From Sinomicrobium kalidii (GTDB lineage: Bacteria; Bacteroidota; Bacteroidia; Flavobacteriales; Flavobacteriaceae), in NCBI RefSeq assembly GCF_021183825.1, contig NZ_CP089211.1, positions 806,001-870,000 of the forward strand: a stretch of DNA of 64,000 nt. Direction: 5' to 3'. The notes under the pieces are model-generated. The model did not search any database and was not told the origin of the DNA. It worked only from the letters and a program-made list of their open reading frames with translations. Made by a program: the position numbers and the translations under genes. Positions 25,156 to 41,392 of this stretch are shown here, one piece after another. The stretch's first letter is position 1, and each line of letters opens with the position of its first letter.

Positions 25156-25211
25156 TACGTACTTATTGTTTTATTAAGTATTTATACTTATATTTGACAT
25201 CTAAATACGTA
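25156..25211 (+). promoter_or_regulatory. nirB promoter with two-box operator
   Basis: The inverted repeat TAAGTA-TTTA-TACTTA (25175-25190) ends in the TA that begins a perfect Bacteroidota -7 element TATATTTG (25189-25196); a TTG 20 bp further up (25167-25169) can serve as -33. TACGTA cores lie upstream (25156-25161) and downstream (25206-25211). The -7 is 19 bp from the nirB ATG. The same arrangement occurs before narK and the porin gene. Confidence 0.75.
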
Positions 25212-25215
25212 CGCT

Positions 25216-27726
25216 ATGAAAAAGATTGTCGTTATCGGGAACGGTATGGTGGGCTATAAGTTTTGTGAAAAACTGGCAGCTCACCCCAAAAGACAGGAAT
25301 TTGACATCACCGTCTTCGGAGAAGAGCCCAAACCGGCCTATGACCGTGTTCACCTCAGTGAATACTTTGCGGGGAAGACAGCGGACCAATTGCTTCTGGC
25401 CGGCTCCGAATGGTACGAAGAACACCGGATACAACTCCATACTTCCGAACTTATTTCAGGTATTGACAGGAAAAAGAAGCAGGTAACTACGTACAAGGGC
25501 AAAACATATACGTATGACTATCTGATACTGGCTACGGGGTCTACGCCTTTCGTCCCCCCTGTCTCAGGTGTCGAAAAAAAGGGAGTATTTGTTTACCGTA
25601 CCCTTGAGGACCTGGACGCCATAAAAGATTATGCCGTGCGGATAAAACGGGAAGGAAAAACGAATGCAGCCGTGCTCGGCGGCGGCCTCCTGGGGCTCGA
25701 AGCCGCCAAAGCCGTTAAAGACCTCGGTTTAAAAGCCCATGTAGTTGAGTTTGCCCCGCGTCTCATGCCCCGACAGCTTGACGATAAGGCAGCGGATATG
25801 CTGAAAACGGAAATGGAAGATCTCGGTATACGCGTTCACCTTAACAAACGAACAGAAAATATCCTCGGGGAAGATCGTATGACGGGAATGCAGTTCGCCG
25901 AGGAGGAAATCCTTCATTCCGATATGCTCATTATTTCCGCAGGCATCCGCCCCCGGGACGAACTTGCCCGTAATTGCGGACTGGAAACCGGGGAACGCGG
26001 CGGAATTGTTGTAGACAACCGCATGCTCACCAATGATCCTTCCATTTATGCCATTGGCGAAGCCGCACTGTACAACAACGGTATTTACGGATTGGTGGCC
26101 CCCGGGTATGATATGGCCGCGGTAACCGTGGAACAAATCACCGGAGGGAACAAGGTCATGGCCGAAAGTATCGATATGTCCACCAAATTGAAGCTTATAG
26201 GTGTGGAAGTGGCCAGTTTCGGAGACCCTTTTATTGAAAATGACGAAGTGGTAGCCGTTACCTACGAAAACAAATTCAGCAGAATATATAAAAGAATAAA
26301 TGTTACCAGGGACGGCAAAAAACTTCTCGGCGGTATCCTGGTCGGGGACGCCTCCGAATACAACAACCTCTTCCAGGTATACCTCAACGGGCTTCCCCTG
26401 CCCGAAAACCCGGAGGACCTCATCCTGGGGTCCCGGGGAGAAGGAAGCGCTTCTGCACTTGGGAATGTCCTTGATCTCCCGGATACCGCACAGGTTTGTT
26501 CCTGTGAAAGTGTTTCCAAAGGAGCCATCTGCAATGCGGTTACAGAACAAGGCTGCGCCTCTGTTGGTGATGTTATCAACTGTACCAAAGCTGCCACGGG
26601 GTGTGGGGGGTGTAAGCCGATGGTAGCCGACCTCGTAAAAGAAACCCTGAAATCACAAGGTATCGAGGCCAAAGAAGTGATCTGCGAACACTTTGACTAT
26701 TCCCGCCAGGAACTCTACGACCTCATCAGGGTAAATGGCATTACCACATATAACGAGGCACTGGACACCCTGGGGAAAGGTGGCGGCTGCGAGGAATGCA
26801 AGCCCGCACTGGCCTCTCTTTTCGCCAGTATTTATAATGAAACTGCCAACAAACAGGTAACCATCCAGGATTCCAACGACCGTTTTCTCGCCAATATCCA
26901 GCGTAACGGCTCCTATTCCGTAGTACCCCGTGTCCCCGGCGGGGAGATCACGGCGCAAAAACTTATTGCACTGGGCAAGGTGGCCCGGAAATACGACCTC
27001 TACACCAAAATTACCGGAGGGCAACGTATAGACCTTTTCGGAGCCCAGCTGAACCAGTTGCCACACATCTGGAAAGACCTTATCGATCACGGTTTTGAGA
27101 GTGGCCATGCTTACGGAAAAGCATTGCGGACAGTAAAAAGTTGTGTGGGCTCCACCTGGTGCAGGTACGGTATGCACGAAAGTGTAAGCTTTGCCATCTG
27201 TATTGAGGACAGGTACAAAGGCATCCGGTCTCCCCATAAACTAAAAGGCGGCGTATCCGGCTGTATCCGGGAATGTGCCGAGGCACGGAGCAAGGATTTC
27301 GGGATCATTGCCGTGGAAGGTGGCTGGAACCTCTACATATGCGGTAACGGTGGCGCCAATCCCAAACACGCCATACTGTTTGCAGAACAACTGGACGACG
27401 AGACCTGCATCAAATATCTCGACAGGTTCCTGATGTTCTATATCAAAACAGCCGCCCCCCTCACCCGGACCGCAAAATGGCTGGACGACCTTGAAGGCGG
27501 TATAGACTACCTGAAACAAGTGGTTATAGAAGACAGCCTGGGTATTGCCGAAAGCCTTGAAAAAGAAATGCAGCAACTCGTGGATTCATACGAATGTGAA
27601 TGGAAACAGGCCATAAACGACCCGGAAATGCGGAAACGCTTCTCCCATTTTGTCAATTCCGACGATACGGATGACAACATGGTTTTTGTTCCCATGCGCG
27701 ATCAGAAAATGCCACGGCCGTGGTAA
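25216..27726 (+). CDS. nirB: NADH-dependent nitrite reductase, large subunit
   Basis: 836 residues, full length. It reduces nitrite to ammonia in the cytoplasm with NAD(P)H. Order: FAD-binding GNGMVGYKFCEKL (~8-20); NADH-binding VLGGGLLGLEAAK (~155-167); NirB [2Fe-2S] BFD-like domain with Cys428 and Cys430 (VCSCESV) and NCTKAATGCGGC (~460-475), repeated once in weaker form (CEHFDYSR... GGGCEECKP); then ferredoxin-like and siroheme/[4Fe-4S] domains with C-x5-C (CVGSTWC, ~643-649) and C-x3-C (GCIREC, ~683-687). It is first in the nitrate island, and siroheme is supplied by the methyltransferase at 39758-40561. Confidence 0.96.
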   Translation: MKKIVVIGNGMVGYKFCEKLAAHPKRQEFDITVFGEEPKPAYDRVHLSEYFAGKTADQLLLAGSEWYEEHRIQLHTSELISGIDRKKKQVTTYKGKTYTYDYLILATGSTPFVPPVSGVEKKGVFVYRTLEDLDAIKDYAVRIKREGKTNAAVLGGGLLGLEAAKAVKDLGLKAHVVEFAPRLMPRQLDDKAADMLKTEMEDLGIRVHLNKRTENILGEDRMTGMQFAEEEILHSDMLIISAGIRPRDELARNCGLETGERGGIVVDNRMLTNDPSIYAIGEAALYNNGIYGLVAPGYDMAAVTVEQITGGNKVMAESIDMSTKLKLIGVEVASFGDPFIENDEVVAVTYENKFSRIYKRINVTRDGKKLLGGILVGDASEYNNLFQVYLNGLPLPENPEDLILGSRGEGSASALGNVLDLPDTAQVCSCESVSKGAICNAVTEQGCASVGDVINCTKAATGCGGCKPMVADLVKETLKSQGIEAKEVICEHFDYSRQELYDLIRVNGITTYNEALDTLGKGGGCEECKPALASLFASIYNETANKQVTIQDSNDRFLANIQRNGSYSVVPRVPGGEITAQKLIALGKVARKYDLYTKITGGQRIDLFGAQLNQLPHIWKDLIDHGFESGHAYGKALRTVKSCVGSTWCRYGMHESVSFAICIEDRYKGIRSPHKLKGGVSGCIRECAEARSKDFGIIAVEGGWNLYICGNGGANPKHAILFAEQLDDETCIKYLDRFLMFYIKTAAPLTRTAKWLDDLEGGIDYLKQVVIEDSLGIAESLEKEMQQLVDSYECEWKQAINDPEMRKRFSHFVNSDDTDDNMVFVPMRDQKMPRPW

Positions 27727-27927
27727 TTAATGTGGAAATTTGGGATAATGAGATAATGTGTCAATGACCGTTAAATGGGAGAGAAAATATCCTGAAGACA
27801 AAGGCAGGTGGTTAAAAACAAAGTGAAGAAGATAAATTCCTCCTTTGGGCGGAGGGGATAGAAAGCCTCTAAAAATGCCTCAAGAGGAGTCTTCCCTGAC
27901 TCCCGTCAACAACTAAAAAACTAAAAA
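27727..27927 (+). other. nirB-nirD spacer
   Basis: 200 bp without a gene, unusually long for two subunits of one enzyme. It contains short inverted repeats such as CCTCC...GGAGG (near 27840-27857) and GGAGTC...GACTCC (near 27887-27904), but no clear T-run or promoter. It may tune the subunit ratio; nothing firmer can be said. Confidence 0.4.
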
Positions 27928-28305
27928 ATGCAGCAACTATTGGAACAATATCGAAAAACGGCCCCCGATGAAGTTAAAAGCTGGGTCAGGGTTGGCAGCA
28001 TACACGACTTTCCGGCAGACGGAGGGGCCTGCATAAAGCACGGTACCCGGCAAATTGCGGTGTTCAATTTTGCCAGGCGCATGGAGTGGTATGCCTGCCA
28101 GAACCTGTGTCCGCACAAACTGGAAATGGTCCTTTCCCGCGGGATGACGGGAGAGGTCAACAATGAGCCCAAAGTGGCCTGTCCCCTGCACAAAAAGACG
28201 TTCTCCCTCAGAACAGGAGATAATTTAAACGGTGATGACTTAAAAATTGCCACCTATCCGGTAAAAATTGAACAGGAAAATGTGTATATTGGTTTTTCAG
28301 ATTAA
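27928..28305 (+). CDS. nirD: Nitrite reductase small subunit, Rieske type
   Basis: 125 residues. It has a Rieske-like fold with both iron-ligand motifs intact: C-P-H (Cys61, His63 in NLCPHK) and C-P-L-H (Cys85, His88). The E. coli NirD lacks these ligands, so this subunit probably carries a real [2Fe-2S] cluster and takes part in electron transfer to NirB. It is followed 32 bp later by the DUF4202 gene. Confidence 0.92.
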   Translation: MQQLLEQYRKTAPDEVKSWVRVGSIHDFPADGGACIKHGTRQIAVFNFARRMEWYACQNLCPHKLEMVLSRGMTGEVNNEPKVACPLHKKTFSLRTGDNLNGDDLKIATYPVKIEQENVYIGFSD

Positions 28306-28337
28306 AATGAATAACCCTGTTTTTGAAAAACCATAGC

Positions 28338-28928
28338 ATGCAACACGTGTCAAAATTTGAAATGGCCATAGGACGGATAGATGCCGAGAATGCCGAAGAC
28401 CCCAATGTGGAAACCGTGAACGGGGTAACCTTCCCCAAGGAACTGCTCTACGCCCGGAGAATGACAGAAAAACTGCTGGACTTTTATCCCGAAGCTTCCG
28501 GCGAACTCCAGATAGCGGCAAGGGCACAACATATTTGCCGGTGGAAAATAGACCGTAAACAGTACCCCATGGACAGGGTAGGTTATCTCAAATGGCGGGA
28601 AGCTCTGAAAAAATTCCATGCCGAAAAAACCTCCGAAATACTGAAAGACCTGGGATTTGAAGATACATTCGCAGAAAGGGTATCTTTCCTCATCCGTAAA
28701 AAACAACTCAAAAAGGACGAAGAGACCCAGATCCTGGAAGATGTGGTCTGCCTCGTTTTTTTACAGTATTATTTTGACGATTTCGCTGCCAAGCATCCCG
28801 AAGAAAAAATAATAGATATTGTCCAGAAGACCTGGGCTAAAATGTCAGAATCCGGACAGCAGGCCGCCCTGGAACTGAAACTGTCCCCGGAGGCATCGGG
28901 CCTGGTAAAAAAAGCGCTGCAAACATAG
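28338..28928 (+). CDS. DUF4202 domain protein
   Basis: 196 residues from the ATG at 28338; a TTG 15 bases upstream is possible but less likely. The sequence (FEMAIGRIDAENAEDPN near the start, then AARAQHICRWKIDRKQYPMDR and ERVSFLIRKKQLKKDEETQ, ILEDVVCLVFLQYYFDDF) matches the DUF4202 family. It has no transmembrane segment or cofactor motif that I can name; the His in AARAQHICRW with downstream D/E residues recalls HD-domain-like helices, only as a weak hint. Family members are known to occur beside nitrate/nitrite genes. Its position between nirD and the sensor kinase suggests a role in nitrite handling or signalling. Function unknown. Confidence 0.75.
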   Translation: MQHVSKFEMAIGRIDAENAEDPNVETVNGVTFPKELLYARRMTEKLLDFYPEASGELQIAARAQHICRWKIDRKQYPMDRVGYLKWREALKKFHAEKTSEILKDLGFEDTFAERVSFLIRKKQLKKDEETQILEDVVCLVFLQYYFDDFAAKHPEEKIIDIVQKTWAKMSESGQQAALELKLSPEASGLVKKALQT

Positions 28929-28956
28929 TACGGTGACGGACATAGTTTTCTACTAA

Positions 28957-30777
28957 ATGAACAACACAGACCGCAAACATCCTTTAGATCAGCAAACCTT
29001 TAAAAAACTGAGCCGGCTATATCTCATAGCCCTTACGGCTATTGCCCTTGCCGTTATTATCAGCCAGGTGCTCATCCAGAAGTTCCTGCACGACCAGGAA
29101 AATGATTCCCGTCTCGTCAATATTGCGGGAAGACAGCGGATGCTCAGCCAGAAACTCGCCAAAGAAGTGCTTTCGTTTTCACCCCGGAACAGCAGGGAGG
29201 AAAACAGGGCCATCAACAACAAGCTCAAAAACACCATACGGGAATGGACCCTTTCCCATCGCGGTTTGCAGGAAGGTAATGACAGCCTGGGGCTGCCGGC
29301 GGGAAACAGTGAGGAAATAACGGTACTTTTCCGGCAGCTCTCCCCCTATTTCGATACCATCCGAAAAGCAGCATCGCGCATCGGTGCCCTTACGGATTCC
29401 GGCACCATTACCAGCCCTGAACAACTGCAAAGGCAAACTGCGGTTATCACCCGGAACGAACCGGAATTTCTGGCCATCATGAACACCATTGTGTATCAGT
29501 ACGACAAGGAAGCCAATGAAAATGTAAAGCAACTCAGCAGGATAGAATACCTTATCCTGTTTATTACCCTGGCTATTCTTCTGCTGGAATTCCTGTTCAT
29601 TTTCCGCCCGGCCGCCGTATTTGTAAAAAAGACGATCACCCAGCTTCTCCTCGCGGAACGAAATGCCAAAAAAATGGCCCGGAATGCCGATCAGTTGAGC
29701 GAGGCCAAGGAACGATCGGTCAAGGAACTGAAAATACTGAACTATGCTATAGACCAGACCCTGTTGTTTGCCCGCATCACTACCGAAGGACGTATTGTTT
29801 ACATGGGTGAAAAATTCGTCAGGCGTTTTATCCCTTCAGGAGGGAATACGGAGCATATGAAACTTTCCGAAGTACTTACACCCGTAAAGCAGGAACGCAC
29901 CCTGCTGGACAACATCCTCTCCGAACACCGGAAAAAGGGATGGCAGGGCGAAATAAAACTCACGCCCAATGATGAGGGTCCCGTGTGGCTGGAGCTGTAC
30001 CTTATTCCCATAGACATCCCGCAGGGCAAATCGGAACTCCTGGTCATCTGTTTTGACATTACGAAACAGAAGGAGGCCCTGGTGGAAATAGAACGGCTCA
30101 ATGCCGTTCATCTTTCCGAGCAGATCGGAAGGCAGAAGATCATTTCCAGCAAGATCATCGAAAACCAGGAAAACGAGCAAAAACGGATAGCCAAGGACAT
30201 TCACGACGGTATCGGGCAAATGCTCACGGGATTAAAGTTCAACATCGAAAGCATTGACCTGAAAACCCCGGAAAAAGCCGCCGAAAAAATAGAACACCTT
30301 AAAAACCTGACCACCGATATTATAAAAGGTGTACGGACCGCCACCTTTAACCTCACCCCTCCCGAACTTACCGACCACGGCATTGTCCCCGCCCTCACCA
30401 AACTGGTACAGGAACTTTCCCGGCTTACCGGAAAGAATATTTTACTGGTGAACAAAACCGGGTTTGCCAACCGTCTTGATTCACTGACGGAGATCAATAT
30501 TTACCGTATCGTACAGGAAGCCATTAACAACGCCATAAAGTATGCCGATTCCACCCATATTGTTGTCAGCCTGTCGCACAGCGATGAAATGCTCAGCATT
30601 ACCATAGACGACAACGGAAAAGGGTTCGACCCGGACAAAATCAATAAAAAGAACAACGGGGCTTCCGGTATGGGCATGACCTTTATGAAAGAGCGGGTGG
30701 AATATATTGACGGCCGACTTTTTATCCACTCCGCTCCCGGTGAAGGGACACGGGTTACGCTGAACATCCCGCTTTAG
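28957..30777 (+). CDS. NarX-like nitrate/nitrite sensor histidine kinase
   Basis: 606 residues. TM1 ~22-43 (LYLIALTAIALAVIISQVLI), a periplasmic PilJ/NarX-type four-helix domain starting with DSRLVNIAGRQRMLSQKLAK (~50-69), which resembles the P-box that binds nitrate in NarX, TM2 ~199-218 (YLILFITLAILLLEFLFIF), a PAS-like region (~255-370) and a HisKA_3 kinase core: phosphoacceptor His in AKDIHDGIGQMLTG (~409-422), then HATPase with NNAIKYA, DDNGKGFD and GMGMTFMKER. It should phosphorylate the NarL-like regulator encoded 146 bp downstream. Nitrate binding is inferred from the P-box and context. Confidence 0.88.
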   Translation: MNNTDRKHPLDQQTFKKLSRLYLIALTAIALAVIISQVLIQKFLHDQENDSRLVNIAGRQRMLSQKLAKEVLSFSPRNSREENRAINNKLKNTIREWTLSHRGLQEGNDSLGLPAGNSEEITVLFRQLSPYFDTIRKAASRIGALTDSGTITSPEQLQRQTAVITRNEPEFLAIMNTIVYQYDKEANENVKQLSRIEYLILFITLAILLLEFLFIFRPAAVFVKKTITQLLLAERNAKKMARNADQLSEAKERSVKELKILNYAIDQTLLFARITTEGRIVYMGEKFVRRFIPSGGNTEHMKLSEVLTPVKQERTLLDNILSEHRKKGWQGEIKLTPNDEGPVWLELYLIPIDIPQGKSELLVICFDITKQKEALVEIERLNAVHLSEQIGRQKIISSKIIENQENEQKRIAKDIHDGIGQMLTGLKFNIESIDLKTPEKAAEKIEHLKNLTTDIIKGVRTATFNLTPPELTDHGIVPALTKLVQELSRLTGKNILLVNKTGFANRLDSLTEINIYRIVQEAINNAIKYADSTHIVVSLSHSDEMLSITIDDNGKGFDPDKINKKNNGASGMGMTFMKERVEYIDGRLFIHSAPGEGTRVTLNIPL

Positions 30778-30888: not shown

Positions 30889-30904
30889 AAAATACGTATT
30901 TTTG
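30889..30904 (+). promoter_or_regulatory. Promoter of the response-regulator gene with ATACGTAT palindrome
   Basis: AAAATACGTATTTT (30889-30902) is a perfect 14-bp palindrome. Its right half overlaps TATTTTTG (30897-30904), a perfect TAnnTTTG -7 element 18 bp from the ATG at 30923. The regulator gene therefore probably has its own, autoregulated promoter. Confidence 0.65.
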
Positions 30905-30922
30905 TGGGAAACACTTTTTGAC

Positions 30923-31582
30923 ATGAGCGAACAAAAAATACGTATCGTCCTCGCAGACGACCATGTATTGGTTAGGGACGGCATCAGAGCACTACTCGAA
31001 GACCAGGAAGACCTTGAAGTCATCGACGAAGCATCAGATGGCAGGGAAGCCCTCCGGATACTGGAAAACAAAACTCCCGACCTGCTTATCGTAGACATCC
31101 GGATGCCCGAACTGAACGGTATTGAAGTGGTAAAAATCATAAAAAAACAGGGCCATCCGGTGAAAACACTCGTACTTTCCATGCACGATTCCGAAGAATA
31201 CGTATTGCAATCCGTCGAGGCAGGAGCAGACGGGTACCTGCTCAAGGGTTCCAGTAAGGAAGAATTTCTGAAAGCCCTGCATACGGTACACTCCGGCGGA
31301 AAATATTTCAGCGGGGACGTTTCCTCCATACTCATACAAAACTTCGTTTCCAAACCCAAATCTCCCGCGGTGGCGGCCGAAGATAAATTCTCACTTACCA
31401 AAAGGGAAAGGCAGATACTGTCGCACGTACTCGAAGGAAAAAGCAACAAGCAAATCGCCGAAGAACTCGATATCAGCAAACGCACCGCCGAAGTACACCG
31501 TTTTAACCTCATGAAAAAACTCAAGGTAAAAAACCTCATCGAACTCGCCAATAAAGCCAAGGAACACGGATTGTCACAGTGA
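30923..31582 (+). CDS. NarL/FixJ-type response regulator
   Basis: 219 residues from the ATG at 30923, which starts at MSEQKIRIVLADDH; an ATG 21 bases upstream lies inside the promoter and was rejected. Receiver domain: acidic pair in LADDHVLVRDG, phosphoacceptor Asp58 (LLIVDIRMPE), switch Lys in LLKGSSKEEF. Output: LuxR/GerE HTH (LTKRERQILSHVLEGKSNKQ then IAEELDISKRTAEVHRFNLM). It is the only DNA-binding protein inside the nitrate island and the best candidate for the shared operator boxes. Confidence 0.92.
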   Translation: MSEQKIRIVLADDHVLVRDGIRALLEDQEDLEVIDEASDGREALRILENKTPDLLIVDIRMPELNGIEVVKIIKKQGHPVKTLVLSMHDSEEYVLQSVEAGADGYLLKGSSKEEFLKALHTVHSGGKYFSGDVSSILIQNFVSKPKSPAVAAEDKFSLTKRERQILSHVLEGKSNKQIAEELDISKRTAEVHRFNLMKKLKVKNLIELANKAKEHGLSQ

Positions 31583-31853
31583 ACAAGGCAACTACCGATA
31601 CCCGGATATTTTTCTGGAAAACGTAAAGCCTCCGGTCACCGGCAACATCCCCGGAAAAATCCGTGTATCGATGGCTGAACACTTTTCTTCCCGCTTTTAC
31701 ATTTGACAATACTTCAAAACCGTTCTGGCTATTTTAGTATAACACGAATATTCCCGTATTTTTTTGAACAGGTCATAATTCTTTCGTAATACGTATTATT
31801 TTTAAGTATTAATACTTATATTTACTACGTAAAACCTCCAAAGAAAAATTGTT
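31583..31853 (+). promoter_or_regulatory. narK promoter with paired palindromes
   Basis: Within this 271-bp gap, TAATACGTATTA (31787-31798, perfect 12-bp palindrome) is followed, centre to centre 18 bp later, by TAAGTATTAATACTTA (31803-31818, perfect 16-bp palindrome). The last TA of the latter starts TATATTTA (31817-31824), one base from TAnnTTTG. A further TACGTA core sits 18 bp downstream of the second centre (31826-31831). The rest of the gap, after the regulator gene, shows no gene. Confidence 0.75.
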
Positions 31854-33206
31854 ATGAAAGAATTTATCTCCAAAAAGGCTACGAAGATCAATCTGCTGGA
31901 CTTCAAAAGCCTGCCCATGCGAACATTTCACATTACCTGGTTTTCGTTCTTTATCTGTTTCTTCGGCTGGTTCGGTATTGCACCGCTCATGGCCGTGGTA
32001 CGGGAAGAATTACAACTGACGAAGGAACAAATAGGAAGTACCATAATCGCATCAGTTGCTATCACCGTTCTCGCCCGGCTGGCCATCGGATGGTTGTGCG
32101 ACAGGATAGGTCCGCGCATTACCTATACCTACCTCCTCATCCTGGGGGCCATCCCCGTAATAGCCATAGGATTGAGCAACAGTTTTGAAACCTTTCTCCT
32201 GTTCCGGCTTACGATCGGTATCATAGGAGCTTCCTTTGTTATTACACAATATCACTCCTCCGTTATGTTTGCCCCCAATGTGGTAGGTACGGCCAACGCT
32301 ACTACCGCCGGATGGGGAAATCTCGGCGGCGGGGTCACACAGATGATCATGCCGCTTCTGTTCGCCGGTTTTATAGCCCTCGGTTTTTCAGACAACTCCT
32401 CCTGGCGATATGCCATGGTCGTACCCGGAATAATTATGATTGTCATGGGTATTATCTATTACAAATACACCAAAGACACCCCGGAAGGCAATTTCAAAGA
32501 CCTGAAAAAAATAAAGGAGGCCGAAACGGGACAGGCAGATCGTTCAGGCAAGCGCGAAAATACTTTTATGACAGCAGTAAAAGACATCCGTGTATGGGCA
32601 CTGTTCTTTATTTATGCCGCATCTTTCGGCATAGAGCTTACCATAAACAATATCGGGGCCATATATTACAAGGATTATTTCGACCTGGACCTGAAAACCG
32701 CCGGGCTGATAGCCGGACTGTTCGGGTTGATGAACCTCTTCGCACGGAGCCTCGGTGGCTATTTTGGTGACAAGGCAGGCATCAAATGGGGACTGAAAGG
32801 CCGTATCCTCTTTCTTTTCACCGTCCTTATTCTCGAAGGCATCATGCTCATTACCTTCTCCCAGATGCGTTTGCTGCCCATGGCCATAGCCGTAATGATC
32901 CTTTTCAGTCTATGCGTTCAAATGGCCGAAGGTGCTACGTTCTCCATCGTCCCGTTTGTCAATAAAAAGGCGGTTGGTGCCGTAAGCGGTATTGTAGGGG
33001 CCGGAGGAAATGTAGGGGCCGTACTCGCCGGGTTCCTGCTGAGATCAGAAGAGGTCAGTTATCCGAATGCATTATTGATCCTGGGAATATGCGTAGCCGT
33101 TATTTCATTATTTTCATTTTTAGTACGTTTTTCTGAAAAAGAAGAAAAAATAGCCGGCAGGGAGATAAAAGCTTCCCTGGAAAACCTGGTTTCTGTGAAA
33201 AATTAA
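31854..33206 (+). CDS. narK: NarK/NasA-type nitrate/nitrite transporter (MFS)
   Basis: 450 residues, about 12 transmembrane helices of the major facilitator superfamily. The nitrate/nitrite porter signatures are present: GWLCDRIGPRITY after TM2, TQYHSSVMFAPNVVGTANAT, and the glycine-rich GWGNLGGGVTQM (~155-166), mirrored in the second half by VSGIVGAGGNVGAVLAGF. Nitrate/nitrite symport or exchange across the inner membrane is expected. It is followed 93 bp later by the nitrate reductase fusion gene; a weak operator copy overlaps its stop codon (33204-33219). Confidence 0.93.
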   Translation: MKEFISKKATKINLLDFKSLPMRTFHITWFSFFICFFGWFGIAPLMAVVREELQLTKEQIGSTIIASVAITVLARLAIGWLCDRIGPRITYTYLLILGAIPVIAIGLSNSFETFLLFRLTIGIIGASFVITQYHSSVMFAPNVVGTANATTAGWGNLGGGVTQMIMPLLFAGFIALGFSDNSSWRYAMVVPGIIMIVMGIIYYKYTKDTPEGNFKDLKKIKEAETGQADRSGKRENTFMTAVKDIRVWALFFIYAASFGIELTINNIGAIYYKDYFDLDLKTAGLIAGLFGLMNLFARSLGGYFGDKAGIKWGLKGRILFLFTVLILEGIMLITFSQMRLLPMAIAVMILFSLCVQMAEGATFSIVPFVNKKAVGAVSGIVGAGGNVGAVLAGFLLRSEEVSYPNALLILGICVAVISLFSFLVRFSEKEEKIAGREIKASLENLVSVKN

Positions 33207-33219
33207 GTATTTTTACGTA
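33204..33219 (+). promoter_or_regulatory. Weak copy of the TAAGTA-N4-TACTTA box
   Basis: TAAGTA-TTTT-TACGTA begins at the narK stop codon; it differs by one base from the repeat found before nirB, narK and the porin gene. No TAnnTTTG element follows, so it may be a weak secondary site for the nitrate reductase gene or a decayed copy. Confidence 0.4.
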
Positions 33220-33299: not shown

Positions 33300-36200
33300 A
33301 TGGCGGACATGCTGAAAACAACCTGCTCCTATTGTGGTGTGGGTTGTGGAATTACGGTAAAGAAAGATGCCAAAAACCGGGTTTATGTGGAAGGAGACAA
33401 GGATCATCCCGTAAACAAGGGAATGCTGTGCTCCAAGGGTATGAACCTCCACCACGTGGTCAACGACACTTCAGACCGCATCCTTTACCCCGAAATACGG
33501 TGGAGCAGTTCCCATCCCAGAGAACAGACAGACTGGGACACCGCCCTGGACCGGGCTGCGGCCGCCTTTAAATCCATCATAAAAAAATACGGTCCGGACA
33601 GCGTGGGATTTTATGTTTCCGGACAATGCCTTACCGAAGAATACTATATCGCCAATAAACTTACCAAGGGCTTTTTAAAGACGAATAACATCGACACCAA
33701 TTCCAGGCTCTGTATGAGTTCTGCCGTGATCGGGTACAAAAAGACCTTTGGCGAAGACAGCGTGCCGATAGCCTATGAAGACATCGAACTGGCCGATTGC
33801 TTTCTTATTGCCGGGGCCAACCCGGCCTGGTGCCACCCCATACTCTTCCGCAGGCTTGAAAAACACAAAGAAACAAATCCCAATGTAAAGGTCATTGTAG
33901 TCGACCCCCGCAAGACCGACTCCGCCAATTTTGCCGATCTCCACCTTCAGATCGTACCGGGTACGGATGTGGTCCTTTACAATGCCATAGGCAGGAGGTT
34001 ACTGGACCGCAAACAGGTAGATTTCGACTTTATCAAAAAACACACCGAGGGCTTTGAAAAGTACAGGGAACTCATCAAATCCGTTTCCCTTAAAAAAGCG
34101 GCGCAAATATGCGGTATTACCGTTGATGAGATCAAAGATGCAGCCGATATGATAGGCGCCTCCGAAGGATTTATTTCCATGTGGGCCATGGGGCTCAATC
34201 AGAGCGTTGTAGGTTCCAACAAAAATTTTTCGTTACTCAATCTCTCCCTGATTACCGGGCATGTGGGTAAACCCGGTTCGGGGCCGTTTTCCCTGACCGG
34301 GCAACCCAATGCCATGGGGGGCCGGGAAGTAGGTGGCATGGCCAGTCTCCTTGCCGTACACAAAAACCTGGATAACCCGGAACACCGCCGGGAAGTAGCC
34401 GACTTCTGGGGTGTGGACGAAATATCCCCGAAACCAGGATACACCGCAACCGAGATGTTTGAGGCTCTCGAAAAAGGAAAACTGAAAGCCATCTGGATCG
34501 TCTGTACCAACCCGCTGGTAAGTCTGCCCGATGTAAGACGGGCGGAAAAAGCACTGCAACAGGCCAAATTTGTAGTGGTACAGGATATTTCCCATAAATC
34601 CGATACTACCCAATACGCCGACTTGCTCCTCCCTGCTGCGGGATGGCTGGAAAAAGAGGGGACCATGACCAATTCCGAACGGCGGGTATCCTACCTCTCC
34701 AAAGGCATTAATCCACCGGGTGAAGCCCTTCCCGACGTGGAAATACTGTGCAGGTTTGCCAAAAAAATGGGGTTCCCGGGATTTGACTACGCTTCCGCGG
34801 AAGAAATTTACCGGGAATACTGTCAAATGACCAAGGGAACCAACATCGACATTTCTTACCTCAGTTATGACCGACTGAAGAACGAAGGCACGTTCCAATG
34901 GCCTGTTCCGGATTACCGCCACCCCGGAACAGCGAGGCTTTTTACCGACAGGAAGTTCTATACCCCTTCACAAAAAGCCGTGTTCAACACCCCGTACAGC
35001 GTGGAAAACGCTTCCATAAAACCCGATGGCGATTATCCGCTGATACTCACCACCGGACGTATACGCGACCAATGGCATACCATGACCCGTACCGGAAAGG
35101 TTTCCCGCCTGAAAACCCACTATCCCGAACCCGTATTGGAGATCAACCCTGTAGATGCCTATATCTGTAAGGTAAAAAGCGGCGACGTGGTAAACATAAA
35201 AAGCCGGAACGGTACGGTAAGGGTCCGCGCAAAAGTAACAGGCAGCATACGGGAACAGGTGGTGTTCCTTCCCATGCACTGGGGCAAACAATTGCAAAAC
35301 GACTACAGCAGGGCCAATAACCTGACCAATAATATTGTAGACCCGCTTTCCAAGGAACCGGACTTTAAATACACCGCTGTGTCGGTTTCCCGCTACAAAA
35401 AACCGGTGCATAAAATCTGTGTTATCGGGGCCGGGGCCGCTGCATTCCGGTTTATCCAGAATTACAGGGAACACAATGAAGAAGATGATATTCACGTCTT
35501 TTCCAAGGAACCGAACCCGTTTTACAACCGGGTACTCCTTCCGGAATACATCACAGAGGAACTGACCTGGGAGCAGCTCCAGAAGATAAAAAAAGAGGAG
35601 CTGGACAAACTGGGCGTTGCCCTGCACTCGGAAAAGCACATCCGGGAAATTGACAGGGAACAAAAACAAATACGGGACAATACCGGGCAATGGCACGACT
35701 ATGATATACTGATCCTTGCCACGGGCAGCAGCCCCTTTGTTCCCGGGGACGTGCCGTTACACCTCCCGGGCAGGTTTACCATACGAAGCAAGGAAGACGC
35801 AGACGGACTCAAAAAATACCTGGACGACACGGGAATTCCCGCCGAAAAACAACATGTTGCCATCGTAGGCGGCGGTTTGCTCGGCCTGGAACTCGCCGCT
35901 GCGCTCAAACACAATAACCTTCAAATCACCATCATACAGCGGGGTTCCCGGCTTATGGAAAGACAACTGGACCCTGTTTCCAGCAAACTCCTTGCCCAGG
36001 ATGTTCAGGAGCGGGGCGTACAGGTGTATTTTGACAATGAGGTAAGTACCGTATTTGACGAGGAAGACACCGGGGAACTGACCATTACCCTGAAAAGCGG
36101 GAAAACGATCAACGCCCACGCTATCGTCTATGCCATAGGCACCACTCCCAATATAACCATTGCCAAAGATTGCGGCCTGCAGTGTGGCAGGGGCGTAAAA

Positions 36201-36821
36201 GTAAATCCGTACCTGCAAACCTCCGATCCCGATATTTTTGCCATCGGGGAAATTGCGGAGTTCAAAAACAATCTCTACGGTATCACTTCGGCAGCCGAAG
36301 AACAGGCCAATATACTGGCCAATTACCTGGCCGGGGATACCGGAAGCACATACAAAGGTTCCGTGTTGATGAACATCCTCAAGTTCCAGGACCTGGACCT
36401 GTGCAGTATAGGCACCGTGCGTATCCCCGAAAACGATGAGGATTACGAAGAGATCGTCTTTACCGATGTCAGCAAGCATTATTACAAAAAATGTATTGTA
36501 AAAAACGACCTGCTCATCGGGGCCATTTTGATGGGCGACAAAAACGAGTTTGCCGAATTCAAGGCCATGATCGAAAGCAAGACCGAACTCCTCGACAAGC
36601 GGGAAACCCTGCTGAGAGGATCTTCTGAAACCAAACCCGTACTGGGCAAACTGATATGTTCCTGCAGCCAGGTAGGCGAAGGCAATCTTATTGCTGCCAT
36701 TGAAAACGGTTGCGGTGATTTTACCGAACTGTGCAAACAAACGGGGGCCGGACTGGGCTGCGGAAGTTGTAAGACCGAGGTGCGGGAAATCCTGAAAAAA
36801 CAGGAAAACCCGGTATCGTAA
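33300..36821 (+). CDS. Assimilatory nitrate reductase fused to NirB-type diaphorase and [2Fe-2S] domain
   Basis: 1173 residues in three parts. (1) Molybdopterin oxidoreductase, ~1-690: [4Fe-4S] ligands Cys9, Cys12, Cys16 and Cys44 (C-x2-C-x3-C-x27-C), and NSRLCMSS (Cys138), the expected Mo ligand in NasA/NarB-type cytoplasmic nitrate reductases. (2) FAD/NAD(P)H diaphorase, ~702-1090: KICVIGAGAAAFRF and VAIVGGGLLGLELAAALK, related to the N-terminal half of NirB and to NasC. (3) BFD-like [2Fe-2S] domain, ~1119-1170: LICSCSQ and TGAGLGCGSCKTEV. This single chain should take electrons from NAD(P)H and reduce nitrate without a separate donor subunit. No signal peptide, hence cytoplasmic. Confidence 0.92.
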   Translation: MADMLKTTCSYCGVGCGITVKKDAKNRVYVEGDKDHPVNKGMLCSKGMNLHHVVNDTSDRILYPEIRWSSSHPREQTDWDTALDRAAAAFKSIIKKYGPDSVGFYVSGQCLTEEYYIANKLTKGFLKTNNIDTNSRLCMSSAVIGYKKTFGEDSVPIAYEDIELADCFLIAGANPAWCHPILFRRLEKHKETNPNVKVIVVDPRKTDSANFADLHLQIVPGTDVVLYNAIGRRLLDRKQVDFDFIKKHTEGFEKYRELIKSVSLKKAAQICGITVDEIKDAADMIGASEGFISMWAMGLNQSVVGSNKNFSLLNLSLITGHVGKPGSGPFSLTGQPNAMGGREVGGMASLLAVHKNLDNPEHRREVADFWGVDEISPKPGYTATEMFEALEKGKLKAIWIVCTNPLVSLPDVRRAEKALQQAKFVVVQDISHKSDTTQYADLLLPAAGWLEKEGTMTNSERRVSYLSKGINPPGEALPDVEILCRFAKKMGFPGFDYASAEEIYREYCQMTKGTNIDISYLSYDRLKNEGTFQWPVPDYRHPGTARLFTDRKFYTPSQKAVFNTPYSVENASIKPDGDYPLILTTGRIRDQWHTMTRTGKVSRLKTHYPEPVLEINPVDAYICKVKSGDVVNIKSRNGTVRVRAKVTGSIREQVVFLPMHWGKQLQNDYSRANNLTNNIVDPLSKEPDFKYTAVSVSRYKKPVHKICVIGAGAAAFRFIQNYREHNEEDDIHVFSKEPNPFYNRVLLPEYITEELTWEQLQKIKKEELDKLGVALHSEKHIREIDREQKQIRDNTGQWHDYDILILATGSSPFVPGDVPLHLPGRFTIRSKEDADGLKKYLDDTGIPAEKQHVAIVGGGLLGLELAAALKHNNLQITIIQRGSRLMERQLDPVSSKLLAQDVQERGVQVYFDNEVSTVFDEEDTGELTITLKSGKTINAHAIVYAIGTTPNITIAKDCGLQCGRGVKVNPYLQTSDPDIFAIGEIAEFKNNLYGITSAAEEQANILANYLAGDTGSTYKGSVLMNILKFQDLDLCSIGTVRIPENDEDYEEIVFTDVSKHYYKKCIVKNDLLIGAILMGDKNEFAEFKAMIESKTELLDKRETLLRGSSETKPVLGKLICSCSQVGEGNLIAAIENGCGDFTELCKQTGAGLGCGSCKTEVREILKKQENPVS

Positions 36822-36826
36822 CAGAA

Positions 36827-36853
36827 AAGGAGGTTAAAAAAATGCTGGCATGA
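36827..36853 (+). promoter_or_regulatory. Strong Shine-Dalgarno with a three-codon ORF coupled to the next start
   Basis: AAGGAGGT (36827-36834) is a full-length Shine-Dalgarno sequence, rare in this genome. It is spaced 7 bases from an ATG at 36842 that encodes only Met-Leu-Ala before TGA (36851-36853). That stop overlaps the real ATG at 36850 (ATGA). Ribosomes would terminate and restart, so expression of the rubredoxin protein could be tuned by this leader. Confidence 0.5.
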
Positions 36854-38286
36854 AGAAAAAATTATCCAGATTGACCGTAAAGGGAGGCGTACTCAGCCCG
36901 CGGGAATTAAAAAACATTGTCGAAACCGCCGAAGAGGCCGGACTGGACAGTATTTCCTTTGGTTCCCGGCAGGACATTCTCTTTCCGGAAACGGTCCGCC
37001 CCGGAATACTGAAAACACTTCGGGGTATGGAAGTGGTAACTTCGGTATCCGACAAAAAGGAGAATATTGTTTCTTCCTATGTTTCTGCCGATATTTTCCC
37101 GGGTACGAGCTGGCTTACCGGTGATCGCTACCTCTATATCCTCGAACAATTCAAGCAAACCCCTACCCTCAAGGTAAACATTACCGATCCCAAACAGCGA
37201 CTGGTGCCTCTTTTTACGGGGCATCTCAACTTTATTGCATCGGCACACGAAGATTACTGGTACCTGCACATCCGGTTGCCGCACTGGGAGAAAAAAGCGG
37301 AATACCCGGCCCTTATCTACGGATGGGACATTGAAAAAGTAGCATCGGCCATAGAAGATATTTTACCGGAAGAACCGGAATCGGTCACTACTATTTTTTA
37401 CCTCCTCAACGACAGGATAGATACCAACAACCGTACTGTGGACACCCCTTTGCAAGTTCCCTTCCACCCTTTTCCGTATTACGAGGGAATGAACAAACTG
37501 GGGTCCGGGAAATACTGGCTGGGACTTTACTGGCGCAATAATCATTACGATATCCGCTTTCTGAAAACCATGTGCGACCTGTGTATGGAATGCAAGATCG
37601 GGAAAATATGTATTACCCCCTGGAAATCCTTTATTGTAAAGGGTATTCCCGTGGAATTTAAACTTACCTGGGAAAAATTTCTGGGCGTAAACGGTATTAA
37701 TGTACGTCATTCCATGCTGGAACTCAACTGGCACGTTCCCGTTGGGGAAGACTGGGCCAGGGAACTCAAAAAATACCTGGTCGGCGAGTTCGACAAGAAC
37801 GATATCAGCACTTACGGGCTTACTTTCGGTATTACGGGATACGGAAAGAAGGTATATTACTTTACATCCGTAGTGATCGAAAAAAATGCTTTTCCGGTGG
37901 ATATTGAAGGTATCGATATTCCCGACACCTACAACCTGCTTTATGCCAGGGATTTCGACCCCAACACCCTGGAATACCTCATCTATGCCCAGGACATTGA
38001 CCGCCGCGAACTCCCCGACCTGCTCATGGAACTCAGCAGGATGTATTTTAAGGAACTGGGCAACGAAAAAGAAGTTATAAAACCAAAAGCACAAAAAAAG
38101 GAGGAAGAAACCTACACGGTGTATCAATGTACTGACTGCCTGACCATCTACAATCCCGAATACGGCGATGTAACACAGGATATCCCATCCGGAACGGCCT
38201 TCGAAGAGCTTCCGGAAAGTTATTGCTGCCCTCTGTGCGAAGCCCCCAAAAGCAATTACAATAAGCAGGAACTGGTAAAGCGGTAA
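36850..38286 (+). CDS. Sulfite/nitrite-reductase-fold protein with C-terminal rubredoxin
   Basis: 478 residues. The N-terminal part contains a nitrite/sulfite-reductase ferredoxin-like half domain (LDSISFGSRQDILFPE, ~36-51, resembling the RQ motif of that fold) and the stretch ICITPWKSFIVKGI (~253-266), similar to the R/K-lined 'TPW' segment of siroheme reductases and CobG. Instead of the usual C-x5-C...C-x3-C pattern it has a tight cluster Cys242, 245, 248, 254 (C-x2-C-x2-C-x5-C). The last ~50 residues are a rubredoxin: CTDC (~428-431) and CPLC (~461-464) around PSGTAFEELPE. It follows the nitrate reductase by 28 bp and is probably its or NirB's electron partner. No enzymatic role is assigned. 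Confidence 0.8.
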   Translation: MKKKLSRLTVKGGVLSPRELKNIVETAEEAGLDSISFGSRQDILFPETVRPGILKTLRGMEVVTSVSDKKENIVSSYVSADIFPGTSWLTGDRYLYILEQFKQTPTLKVNITDPKQRLVPLFTGHLNFIASAHEDYWYLHIRLPHWEKKAEYPALIYGWDIEKVASAIEDILPEEPESVTTIFYLLNDRIDTNNRTVDTPLQVPFHPFPYYEGMNKLGSGKYWLGLYWRNNHYDIRFLKTMCDLCMECKIGKICITPWKSFIVKGIPVEFKLTWEKFLGVNGINVRHSMLELNWHVPVGEDWARELKKYLVGEFDKNDISTYGLTFGITGYGKKVYYFTSVVIEKNAFPVDIEGIDIPDTYNLLYARDFDPNTLEYLIYAQDIDRRELPDLLMELSRMYFKELGNEKEVIKPKAQKKEEETYTVYQCTDCLTIYNPEYGDVTQDIPSGTAFEELPESYCCPLCEAPKSNYNKQELVKR

Positions 38287-38322
38287 TTTTCAGGACAGCC
38301 CCGTGGTTAAGATACTAAACCA

Positions 38323-38352
38323 CTCTGCACAAAGGTGCAGAGGTTTTCTTTA
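38323..38352 (+). terminator. Terminator of the nitrate operon
   Basis: CTCTGCAC (38323-38330) pairs with GTGCAGAG (38335-38342) around the AAAG loop, followed by a T-rich tract. It ends the transcript that runs from narK or nirB through the rubredoxin protein. Confidence 0.8.
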
Positions 38353-38520
38353 CCGGGGACTAAAAGTCCCCCTTCTTGGAAAGCAATAAAATTACCAAGT
38401 GATTAGGTGGATTTAGTTATGGAGTTATTTAGTCAACACACAATAACTCAATAACCTCATAACTCAATAACCGGGATTATAATTTTTTAGCACTACTAAA
38501 GTACTGCAATAATCCCGATT

Positions 38521-38540
38521 ATCCCGATAGATATCGGGAT
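38521..38540. repeat. ATCCCGATA palindromic repeat
   Basis: A 20-bp near-perfect palindrome: ATCCCGATA (38521-38529), two spacer bases and TATCGGGAT (38532-38540). It is flanked by further CCCGAT and CGGG copies. The left half recurs next to the sigma factor gene at 17389-17398. Confidence 0.6.
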
Positions 38541-38682
38541 CGGGAGCAGGGTTTGACACCCTAAACTGAGACCAATCAATTCAGATAGTCGGCCGGGAAA
38601 AGCTTCTTTACAATGAGATAAAAAATTTTGAGATTTATTTTTGAAAATAAATCTCGTCAAAAGCACATTAAATAACTACGGA

Positions 38683-39594
38683 CTATTCCCCGTGACGTTC
38701 CCCTTTTACTACTTTAAAAATATGAAGTACGTGCGGAAATATGGCATCCATGGATTCCCGGGCACCATTGGTAGACCCCGGTAATGCCAGTACCAGACAC
38801 CCCCCTGCCATTCCCGCAACACTTCGGGACAATGCGGCATAGGGCATCCGTTGCTGGCCGTAACTTCTTATCGCTTCCTCTATTCCCGGTATCTTCCGGT
38901 CGATCAGCGGTGCCAGGGCTTCGGGAGTGACATCCCGTTCGGAAAGCCCCGTTCCCCCGGTGAATATCAGCAGATGGTTATTTCCGGTGTATTGCCGGGT
39001 CTTGTTTTTGATGATCGCTGCCTCATCGGGAATAATATCGTAGGCAGTGACCTCTACATCACACTGGTTCAGTTTGTCTATAATGGCTTTTCCGGCCCGG
39101 TCTTCCTTTTTCCCTGCGGATATGGTATCGGAACAAACGATCACTGCAGCTTTCAGCGGGGAGGAAAAGGTATTTACAAAAGAGGACTTCCCTCCTCTTT
39201 TATGTAACAGTTTAATGCGTTGTATTTCTATTTCCTTGTCTATGGGTTTCAGCATGTCATACATGGTCAGTGCCACTACCGAGGCCCCGTGCATGGCCTC
39301 CACTTCCACCCCGGTCTTATAAACCGTTTTCACGGTAAACACAATATGTATCTCCTGCGCCCCGATTTCATAATCTACCGAAGTGTACTCCACCGGAAGC
39401 GGGTGACAGTCCGGAATGACCTGGTAAGTGTTCTTTACGGCAAAAAGCCCGGCTGTTTTAGCCATTTCCAGGACGTTTCCCTTAGGGACAAGATCGTTCT
39501 TAATCGCCGTTATAGTTTCTTTTTTTCCTACTTTCACCACAGCCTGGGCAGTTGCCGTACGGAGTGTGGTTATTTTATGGGTTATATCGACCAT
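38683..39594 (-). CDS. moaCB: Fused MoaC-MoaB molybdopterin biosynthesis protein
   Basis: 303 residues from the ATG at 39594 (MVDITHK is the normal MoaC start); frame extending upstream was not used. N-terminal MoaC (~1-150) makes cyclic pyranopterin monophosphate: DCHPLPVEYTSVDYE and TGVEVEAMHGASVVALTMYD carry the active-site region. C-terminal MoaB/MogA (~160-303) adenylates molybdopterin: VIVCSDTISAGKKEDRAG and FTGGTGLSERDVTPEAL. The fusion is common in Bacteroidota. It provides the cofactor for the nitrate reductase on the other strand; moaA, moaD, moaE and moeA are not in this window. Confidence 0.93.
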   Translation of the reverse strand: MVDITHKITTLRTATAQAVVKVGKKETITAIKNDLVPKGNVLEMAKTAGLFAVKNTYQVIPDCHPLPVEYTSVDYEIGAQEIHIVFTVKTVYKTGVEVEAMHGASVVALTMYDMLKPIDKEIEIQRIKLLHKRGGKSSFVNTFSSPLKAAVIVCSDTISAGKKEDRAGKAIIDKLNQCDVEVTAYDIIPDEAAIIKNKTRQYTGNNHLLIFTGGTGLSERDVTPEALAPLIDRKIPGIEEAIRSYGQQRMPYAALSRSVAGMAGGCLVLALPGSTNGARESMDAIFPHVLHIFKVVKGERHGE

Positions 39595-39668
39595 GATTCC
39601 GGGTTTCAGGTTCTTTTGGGTTAAATTAAGGTATTGGCATTTACAGCCCTCTATATAATTACGCTCAA

Positions 39669-39704
39669 AATACAAAAATAAAACAGGTTCGAAAGAACCT
39701 GTTT
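39669..39704 (-). terminator. Terminator of the mobA-siroheme methyltransferase transcript
   Basis: A perfect 10-bp stem (AAACAGGTTC at 39681-39690 with 39695-39704) and a 4-base loop. On the minus strand it is followed by a T-rich tract (RC of 39669-39680), so it ends transcripts coming from 40561. moaCB then needs its own start. Confidence 0.8.
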
Positions 39705-39757
39705 AAACTTTTCAACTACTACTGGCCCTCGTTTGCAACGAGTGGAATACCATCACC

Positions 39758-40561
39758 TCACCTCCCCAAAAACGGCAGTAAATTCAGGTTCTGGAACAAA
39801 AATTCGTCTTCGAGAAATTCTTCATCATAATAACCGGCAAGTACGGAAGCGTATTTCACTACCTCCCCCGTAACAATAACTGCAGGCGATGTAAGCCCTT
39901 CTTTCCTCACCACTTCTTCTATGGTATCAATGGTGCCGTACCCGGCCTTCTCTCCTTCGGTAGTTCCGTTCTGTATCACGGCCACGGGGAGGTTTTGCTT
40001 ACCACATTCCCGGTAGGCAGAAACGATTTCCGGTAATTTGCTTATCCCCATCAATATGATGACCGTTGCCGACGACTGTGCTGCAAGCCTTACATCACCG
40101 GACAGTTTTCCTGAAGAAGTAGTTCCCGTAACTACCCAGAAACTTTCCGCGACTTTCCTGCGTGTCACGGGAATACCCTGGCCGGCAGGCACTGCAATCG
40201 CCGAGGTAATACCGGGGATTACCTGCGTGCTTATTCCAAAGTTTTCAGCATATTCCGTTTCTTCCGCTCCCCGGCCAAAAACATTGGGGTCCCCTCCCTT
40301 TAGCCGGACCACATGGCCCTGACCAAGTGCCTTGTCCACAATAAGCTTATTGATCTCTTCCTGTGAAAACCGGTGGGCTCCCTTGCGTTTGCCCACAAAG
40401 ATCTTCTCAGCCTGCGGGGCATGGGACAATAATTCCGTGTTTACAAGAGCATCATACAGTACCACATCCGCTGCTGCCAGTGCTTTCACCGCTTTAAGGG
40501 TAATGAGGTCCGGATCTCCCGGTCCTGCACCTATCAATGTGAGTTTTGGTATCTTTTTCAT
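39758..40561 (-). CDS. cobA: Uroporphyrinogen-III C-methyltransferase (siroheme synthesis)
   Basis: 267 residues. It transfers two methyl groups from S-adenosylmethionine to uroporphyrinogen III to give precorrin-2. SUMT motifs: VTLIGAGPGDPDLIT-like start (LTLIGAGPGDPDLITLKAVK, ~8-27), VVRLKGGDPNVFGRG (~85-99), VIPGITSAIAVPA (~115-127) and the ATVIILMG segment. The siroheme made from this intermediate is required by NirB. CysG-type dehydrogenase and ferrochelatase domains are absent, so the later steps are encoded elsewhere. It follows mobA by 33 bp. Confidence 0.95.
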   Translation of the reverse strand: MKKIPKLTLIGAGPGDPDLITLKAVKALAAADVVLYDALVNTELLSHAPQAEKIFVGKRKGAHRFSQEEINKLIVDKALGQGHVVRLKGGDPNVFGRGAEETEYAENFGISTQVIPGITSAIAVPAGQGIPVTRRKVAESFWVVTGTTSSGKLSGDVRLAAQSSATVIILMGISKLPEIVSAYRECGKQNLPVAVIQNGTTEGEKAGYGTIDTIEEVVRKEGLTSPAVIVTGEVVKYASVLAGYYDEEFLEDEFLFQNLNLLPFLGR

Positions 40562-40594
40562 CGGAATGTGGTTTCTGCAATTTTTTATTTTGGT

Positions 40595-41173
40595 CTACAA
40601 TACTATCTGCAGGTCTTCCCGCGTATTTATGTTTTGCAATTCAATACTTCTCTCTCCGGACACCGGTAATTGCTGGCAGTTAATCCTTTCAAGCACTTTC
40701 ATAAGGCGCAGCTCATTCTGCAACAAGGCAGCTTTAAACAAATGCCTCGTCTTTTTCTTGTATATCCCGATGAGCGGGTGAATACGGTCGCTGTCCCTGA
40801 CTACAGTTATAGCGGCGGTTCCGTTTCGGTGCCAAACCATCAGCTCCCTCAGCAATCCGGTGGTAAGCAGAGGCACATCACAACTTAGAATAAGGTTATC
40901 TTCCGTATCCGAATGTTGCAGGGCCGTGTAAATTCCGCCTATGGGTCCCTTATCGGCATAAATATCCGTTATGGTATCCGGATATCCGTATGCTTCGCGA
41001 TTGCCGGAATTGGTCACCAGGAAAACCCGGTCGCAAACCGGGATTATCGCCTCAAAAATATGTCCTACAAAGGTCCTGCCATTAAAGACCACCAGACCTT
41101 TTTCCGATCCCATTCTCCTGCTTTTTCCCCCGCAAAGGATATACGTAGATATGTCTCCTGCTAAATTAGTCAA
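40595..41173 (-). CDS. mobA: Molybdenum cofactor guanylyltransferase
   Basis: 192 residues. It attaches GMP to the molybdenum cofactor, forming the guanine dinucleotide form used by NasA-type reductases. Nucleotidyltransferase motifs: LCGGKSRRMGSEKG (~13-26), GPIGGIYTAL (~76-85) and LSCDVPLL (~96-103, metal-binding Asp). The start appears to be TTG at 41173: a TGA stop lies 9 bases upstream in frame and no ATG or GTG precedes the first motif. It opens the minus-strand cofactor cluster; the promoter must lie in the 239-bp gap shared with the porin gene. Confidence 0.9.
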   Translation of the reverse strand: MTNLAGDISTYILCGGKSRRMGSEKGLVVFNGRTFVGHIFEAIIPVCDRVFLVTNSGNREAYGYPDTITDIYADKGPIGGIYTALQHSDTEDNLILSCDVPLLTTGLLRELMVWHRNGTAAITVVRDSDRIHPLIGIYKKKTRHLFKAALLQNELRLMKVLERINCQQLPVSGERSIELQNINTREDLQIVL

Positions 41174-41354
41174 TGGTTTTCAATTTATGTGTACAAGCCG
41201 GAAATAAAATTTCAAACACTCCCCCTTTTTATACTACCCAACAAAAAGACCTCTCCCATCCCCGAATTACCGGGGATGTTCGAGGAAAACTTCAATGTTG
41301 ACACAACACAGTCAGTAAAAAGCTAATACGGGACAAATATATAAAAAATACACA

Positions 41355-41392
41355 AAATACGTATTTAAATTAAGTATTTTTACTTAGTTTTG
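41355..41392 (+). promoter_or_regulatory. Porin promoter with two-box operator
   Basis: AAATACGTATTT (41355-41366, perfect palindrome) is followed 18 bp later (centre to centre) by TAAGTA-TTTT-TACTTA (41371-41386). The last TA starts a perfect -7 element TAGTTTTG (41385-41392), 20 bp from the ATG at 41413. The spacing between boxes is the same as at narK. Confidence 0.8.

Follow-up and report, generated by a model that had tools for sequence, protein, structure and literature searches.

A candidate operator for the Bacteroidota nitrate two-component system narHK/narRR, merged with the -7 promoter element, in Sinomicrobium kalidii and its relatives

A 64,000-nucleotide stretch of the Sinomicrobium kalidii genome (assembly GCF_021183825.1, contig NZ_CP089211.1, positions 806,001 to 870,000), referred to below as the window, contains a nitrate cluster in which one inverted repeat, TAAGTA-N4-TACTTA, recurs at the promoters of nirB, narK and a porin gene. 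Comparison of the window with related genomes suggests, on balance, that this repeat, generalised to TA[AC]GTA-N4-TAC[GT]TA, serves as the operator of narHK/narRR, the nitrate two-component system of Bacteroidota. Window coordinates given below as ranges refer to the forward strand.

Operator copies in the window and in the genome

The exact sequence TAAGTA-N4-TACTTA was found at 25175..25190 (nirB), 31803..31818 (narK) and 41371..41386 (porin gene), the positions given in an earlier note that had been made from the letters of this DNA. These are the only 3 copies in the 5,364,211-base genome, and all of them are inside the nitrate cluster; the motif read backwards, used as a control, occurred once. 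Dinucleotide shuffling of the window (100 shuffles) gave a mean of 0.01 exact copies, so the opinion of the note that three copies are not random was upheld. The note had also asked whether the motif might be equally frequent elsewhere in the genome, which is not the case, since 3/3 exact copies belong to the cluster. As it had further stated, the last TA of each copy is at the same time the first TA of a -7 element of the TAnnTTTG type, namely TATATTTG at nirB (25189..25196), TATATTTA at narK (31817..31824) and TAGTTTTG at the porin gene (41385..41392), and the ATG follows 19, 29 and 20 bp after the element, respectively.

Two details of the note had to be changed. Its count of three sites missed a fourth site in the cluster, TAAGTA-N4-TACGTA at 33204..33219, which precedes the nitrate reductase gene and has neither TTTG nor TTTA after it. 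Its half-site, TACTTA, is correct for the three exact copies but too narrow, because across relatives the operator reads TA[AC]GTA-N4-TAC[GT]TA and thus consists of a pair of outward-facing TACKTA half-sites, with TACGTA also serving. The generalised form TAMGTA-N4-TACKTA has 5 copies in the 5.36 Mb genome (control 1), 4 of which are inside the nitrate cluster; the fifth is located within an open frame at genome position 2,073,018.

Accessory TACGTA half-sites flank the window operators. They were found upstream of nirB (25156..25161), in the nirB leader (25206..25211), upstream of narK (31790..31795), in the narK leader (31826..31831) and upstream of the porin gene (41358..41363). Another belongs to a half-operator (TACGTATTTTTG, 30893..30904) before the response regulator gene, where the -7-like sequence TATTTTTG, the likely -7 element of this gene, stands in the same register. 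Extra half-sites were also enriched near the nirB operators of relatives compared with shuffled sequences (87 vs 10, 29 vs 5 and 239 vs 17), and the offset of the nirB leader half-site corresponds to a peak at +30/+31. Because TACGTA alone is frequent in the window (20 occurrences vs 9.4 expected), single half-sites are weak as evidence.

Conservation of the operator in relatives

A drawn sample of 299 genomes of the family was scanned. Upstream regions of nirB were collected by gene, from the 66 of 67 family genomes with NirB that had upstream sequence (G271 was excluded because of a contig end) and from 80 named loci fetched by NirB, many of them from Flavobacterium species. The resulting 146 regions include three identical pairs (G226/L190, G084/L210 and G162/L227), and 143 are distinct.

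The generalised operator was present within 150 bp upstream of nirB in 143/146 regions (65/66 from the family draw and 78/80 named loci; 140/143 distinct regions), whereas the read-backwards control was present in 0/146. It is followed directly by nn[TA]TTG in 132/146 regions, so that its last TA is that of TAnn[TA]TTG. The three regions without the generalised operator were those of G228, with two mismatches to the exact core, and of L157 and L231, with one mismatch each. For alignment, the 143 operator-bearing regions were reduced to 140 non-identical windows, and in the three regions with several operators the one before [AT]TT was preferred. The four columns of TTTG were conserved at 93-100% over these windows.

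The upstream counts for other genes include regions chosen by the motif, and the locus sets overlap in part. An operator was found upstream of narK in 47/53 cases (25/27 in NirB-chosen loci and 22/26 in partly motif-chosen loci), of cobA in 13/14 and of the regulator's own gene in 31/115. Genes downstream of nirB had no operator upstream (NirD 0/108, DUF4202 0/106, kinase 0/106). The counts for nirB and narK answer in the negative the second question raised in the earlier note, whether the motif might be absent from orthologous nitrate promoters.

Proposed binder of the operator

The closest orthologs of the NarL-like regulator of the window (at least 267 bits) were detected in 44/299 family genomes, and 44/44 of these carry between 1 and 10 exact operator copies; it must be held against this comparison that the cut-off was fixed post hoc, at the point where operator counts change (267.8 vs 266.4 bits). 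More distant orthologs (240-266 bits) were found in 21 further family genomes, 11 of which have an exact copy (five in G177, one or two in the others). Exact copies are few in this group because its nirB operators mostly use TACGTA. When the -7 tail was required (TAAGTA-N4-TACTTA-NN-TTTR), a match was obtained in 54/299 genomes, that is, in 42/44 with a close ortholog, 2/21 with a distant one and 10/234 of the rest.

These numbers also bear on the explanation that the repeat is a chance likeness of AT-rich promoters. Among the 234 family genomes lacking the regulator at the cut-off, 77 had at least one exact stray copy, and the 10/234 that match with the -7 tail may be set beside 9/299 for the tailed motif read backwards. 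The window shuffles and the nirB upstream counts given above speak so strongly to the contrary that chance was rejected, and its probability is considered negligible.

A relative of the regulator was encoded in 67/67 family genomes with NirB, 65 of them at E<=1e-70; in the other two, G180 and G228, it scored 220 and 210 bits and was on a different contig from nirB. Outside the family, 13 genomes with nirB were considered, and a regulator of more than 250 bits was found in two. One of them, G483, has a perfect operator. The other, G468 (locus L251; another family of the class), has an N5 variant at nirB, TACGTA-N5-TACGTA followed by TTTTTG, with a spacer one base longer. The remaining 11 genomes had no operator; 9 had no regulator match at E<=1e-50, and in 2 the relative scored just 195 and 184 bits. 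Taken together, the co-occurrence of regulator and operator across genomes makes it very likely that narRR binds TA[AC]GTA-N4-TAC[GT]TA, and it backs the NarL-like regulator at 30923, which the earlier note had named as the local candidate.

It was observed in genome G479 (contig C23, 64005-68977) that a weaker relative of the regulator adjoins nirB, that its recognition helix differs (SVRTVDNHRANMM) and that an operator of this kind is absent. Other regulator-operator pairs may thus exist.

The second regulator in the studied part of the window, of the MarR type (23618), was rejected as the binder, as it was counted in only 1/80 named loci. An unlinked regulator, for example of the MerR type, was also considered. 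MerR sites lie in promoter spacers, and the operator likewise sits in the promoter spacer beside the -7 element. Such a regulator is nevertheless most unlikely to be the binder, given that the NarL-like regulator was kept in 75/80 named loci and that it tracks the presence of the operator outside the family.

Binding by a regulator of the Crp/Fnr family would account for the layout of the operator, an N4 palindrome like an FNR-like or HcpR2 box; in the passages available, the HcpR motifs of both the FNR type and the HcpR2 type are N4 palindromes (PMC1274295). In some genomes, moreover, a Crp/Fnr gene bears the operator at its own promoter. However, no Crp/Fnr ortholog was found at E<=1e-40 (at most 9 candidates scored per genome) in this genome and in 7 more of the 44 closest-ortholog genomes, all of which bear the operator, and 7/8 Crp genes examined in loci of a second regulator group (group II) had no operator within 220 bp. 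The Crp/Fnr regulator was rejected as the binder on the missing ortholog, and it appears very improbable in this role; for the same reason the gene is more likely a target. The genes in question, found at L011, L018, L057 and other loci, encode a protein with an N-terminal Cys-rich stretch. Their position under the operator hints at a regulatory cascade.

Recognition helix and half-site base

By sequence, the nearest solved structure to the regulator is that of NarL (1a04). Its recognition helix is mostly SKRTAEVHRF in the closest-ortholog group and SKRT[IV]ETHRF in group II, where it was read in 17/21 genomes (15 T, 1 V, 1 A at the variable residue). Exceptions are G177 with V, G082 with A and Salegentibacter with A. 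Alignment to the NarL structure places the variable residue at what we take to be V189 of NarL, with a one-residue offset in numbering. The fourth base of the half-site, T or G, was found to shift with this residue (Fisher p 7e-7, distinct rows). In the tree of the regulator, built from 119 distinct rows thinned to 90, the regulator of a Chryseobacterium (L229; Weeksellaceae) falls within the Flavobacterium clade, which suggests a transfer of the cluster.

Several results weigh against the proposal. The shift between V and T is essentially one deep split in the regulator tree; since this amounts to almost one event only, the shift lends little weight as covariation. Two genomes run counter to it, G164 with T and TACTTA on both sides and G177 with V and TACGTA on both sides. 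Finally, an operator was found upstream of the nitrate reductase gene in only 23/68 relatives and upstream of the porin gene in only 9/41.

Operator position and the sign of regulation

The -7 box of F. psychrophilum is placed at -12..-5 in the passages available (PMC9723704). By this placement the operator would span about -26 to -11, with its centre at -18.5. The distance between operator and -7 element was measured at 347 non-identical intergenic sites, a set that includes loci selected through the tailed motif (among them 40 regions). The commonest register, with the -7 element beginning at +14 counted from the operator start, accounts for 170 of the 347 sites (5 expected); +23/24 accounts for 27 and -15/-16 for 20 (about 1 expected for each of these two), and 113 are outside both main position classes. 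When only NirB-chosen loci were used, the register +14 was exact in 108/232 sites (3.4 in shuffles), with 15 sites at +23/24 and 6 at -15/-16.

Regulator-gene promoters make up 17/27 of the +23/24 sites. Those at -15/-16 belong to NrtA-like genes (14) and single-domain globin genes (6), both named from sequence, where TAnnTTTG precedes the operator by about 7 nt (NrtA at L139, L140, L144, L041, L059 and other loci; globin at L011, L016 and L057). A nirB-like place is found at the NrtA genes of L035, L037, L225, L230 and L231. That a second position exists, on the downstream side and close to the promoter element, points to an action of the regulator that depends on position. A TTG at -33 with a spacer of 17-20 was present in 8% of 102 control TAnnTTTG matches and in 10% of 117 operator promoters; because these controls were taken from related species, the comparison carries no weight.

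Of the two options named in the earlier note, repression and a promoter-touching activator, we lean on the whole towards activation by a regulator bound at -26..-11, since these genes would be expected to be switched on by nitrate and a few registers dominate. The same binder could have the opposite sign, masking either the -7 element or the transcription start when nitrate is absent and being released by nitrate. Much in the layout suits such a repressor. The operator overlaps the -7 element, half-sites occur at about +4, and the second position, seen at globin and NrtA genes, follows TTTG by about 7 nt. Which of the two positions an NrtA gene has differs between species (7 sites in the upstream arrangement, 16 in the downstream one and 6 in neither), and a repressor could work in both. 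In E. coli, a NarL site with the same centre, -18.5, represses ompW in the passages available (PMC4886647).

Two considerations stand against repression. The dominance of discrete registers (+14, +23/24 and -15/-16) is more order than blocking requires, yet the 113 sites in neither main class must be set against it. Kinases of the NarX type are activated by nitrate, and regulators of the GerE type usually bind when phosphorylated. A repressor behaving in this way would shut the nitrate genes off in nitrate. Repression at nirB and narK is regarded as the less likely reading, but as a serious rival.

With activation as the preferred reading, the following mechanism may be proposed. The membrane kinase (28957) would detect extracytoplasmic nitrate by means of its PilJ-type domain and phosphorylate the NarL-like regulator (30923). 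A regulator dimer would then place each subunit on one TACKTA half-site, and the additional half-sites would aid loading. At nirB, narK and the porin gene, the bound regulator would contact RNA polymerase and turn the promoter on. At the globin and NrtA genes of relatives, where the operator is just downstream of the -7 element, it would block transcription. A broader idea, offered tentatively, is that in many Flavobacteriaceae and some Cytophagales a regulator of the NarL family works inside the core promoter on an operator merged with the -7 element, activating from -26..-11 and repressing from about +3..+18. Where the operator stands relative to TTTG might then decide between induction by nitrate (NarK route) and shut-off by it (NrtA route).

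Genes of the nitrate cluster

The cluster comprises nirB, encoding the nitrite reductase large subunit (25216..27726; Pfam), followed by a nirD-like small subunit gene named from its position (27928..28305; ortholog in 80/80 named loci) and by a conserved companion encoding a DUF4202 protein (28323..28928; ortholog in 78/80), which lies between the nirD-like gene and the gene for the narHK-type sensor kinase (28957..30777). Next come narRR, encoding the NarL/GerE-type response regulator proposed as the binder (30923..31582), and narK, encoding a nitrate/nitrite transporter that scored above the cut-off of NCBIfam TIGR00886 (31854..33206). The molybdopterin oxidoreductase encoded at 33300..36821 is probably an assimilatory nitrate reductase; its score with the NasC model was below the cut-off, and it is fused to a NirB-like Pyr_redox/BFD module. 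A NirA-like half-domain protein with a C-terminal rubredoxin follows (36850..38286). Between it and the Alginate_exp-type outer-membrane porin gene (41413..42681; Pfam) are cofactor genes on the opposite strand.

Sinomicrobium weinanense (locus L201), whose NirB is 90% identical, has kept the sites at nirB, narK and nitrate reductase; its locus stops before the porin gene. Its nitrate reductase site (L201, 17046) is followed by AATTTA, unlike the window site at 33204..33219. Neither NirB nor the regulator gave a match at the cut-offs applied in G094 and G297, two other genomes of the genus in the draw, and no operator was present in them, so the distribution of the system within the genus is patchy.

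Comparison with known systems

A nitrate-sensing pair of kinase and regulator in Bacteroidetes has been named narHK/narRR, and the passages available describe a PilJ-type sensor with a G-x-x-R P-box and PAS replacing HAMP/GAF, an adjacent NarL-like regulator and nitrate genes around (PMC8199190). The same arrangement was found here, and record JH651379.1 of Figure 3 in that review is the record of locus L155. The window kinase matches Pfam PilJ, PAS_9, HisKA_3 and HATPase_c and lacks HAMP and GAF, as does the Flavobacteriales type. Its P-box, VNIAGRQRM at residue 54, contains G-x-x-R, of which G and R are each kept in 105/107 orthologs; where the review has S-L after the G, R/K-Q is found here. 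With a NarL-like regulator adjoining it among nitrate genes, the kinase fits the narHK/narRR class as judged from its sequence, and nitrate is quite likely the signal. Against this, a nitrate chemoreceptor has a PilJ P-box as well (PMC8199190), and the P-box is no proof that the kinase senses nitrate.

The terms operator, heptamer and DNA-binding had 0 matches in the main text of the review, and its available passages name no DNA target; in a literature search on the pair, titles and abstract starts pointed to no operator. This sensor class, known from sequence and with no DNA target described in the literature searched, would therefore gain a candidate operator together with a promoter layout. 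The predicted regulon comprises nirB, narK and nitrate reductase; the regulator's own gene and the porin belong to it only sometimes, and globin, NrtA and the Crp/Fnr gene only in certain species. Signalling by sensors without HAMP, which is listed as an open question in the part of the review available (PMC8199190), becomes testable through a reporter with the candidate operator.

The HcpR boxes of the FNR type, as given in part of PMC1274295, are likewise N4 inverted repeats at nitrogen-oxide genes, but their sequence differs, and this genome yielded no counterpart of the Crp/Fnr ortholog that stands beside the operator in relatives (E<=1e-40). The regulator itself scored 164.9 bits with the NCBIfam NarL model (cut-off 250) and 202.4 bits with the best model, MctR (cut-off 300); it is NarL-like and not a NarL equivalog. 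The classic NarL arrangement is an inward-facing 7-2-7 pair, whereas the half-sites described here face outward with N4 between them. The NarL heptamer of the E. coli NarXL/NarQP system, TACYYMT in the passages available (PMC4886647), is matched by TACTTAT at nirB and narK but not by TACTTAG at the porin gene or by the TACGTA sites. Unlike the E. coli sites, the present operator also accepts TACGTA and overlaps the Bacteroidota -7 element. The candidate operator thus resembles the NarL heptamer in TACTTAT, yet is outward-facing, N4-spaced and TACGTA-accepting.

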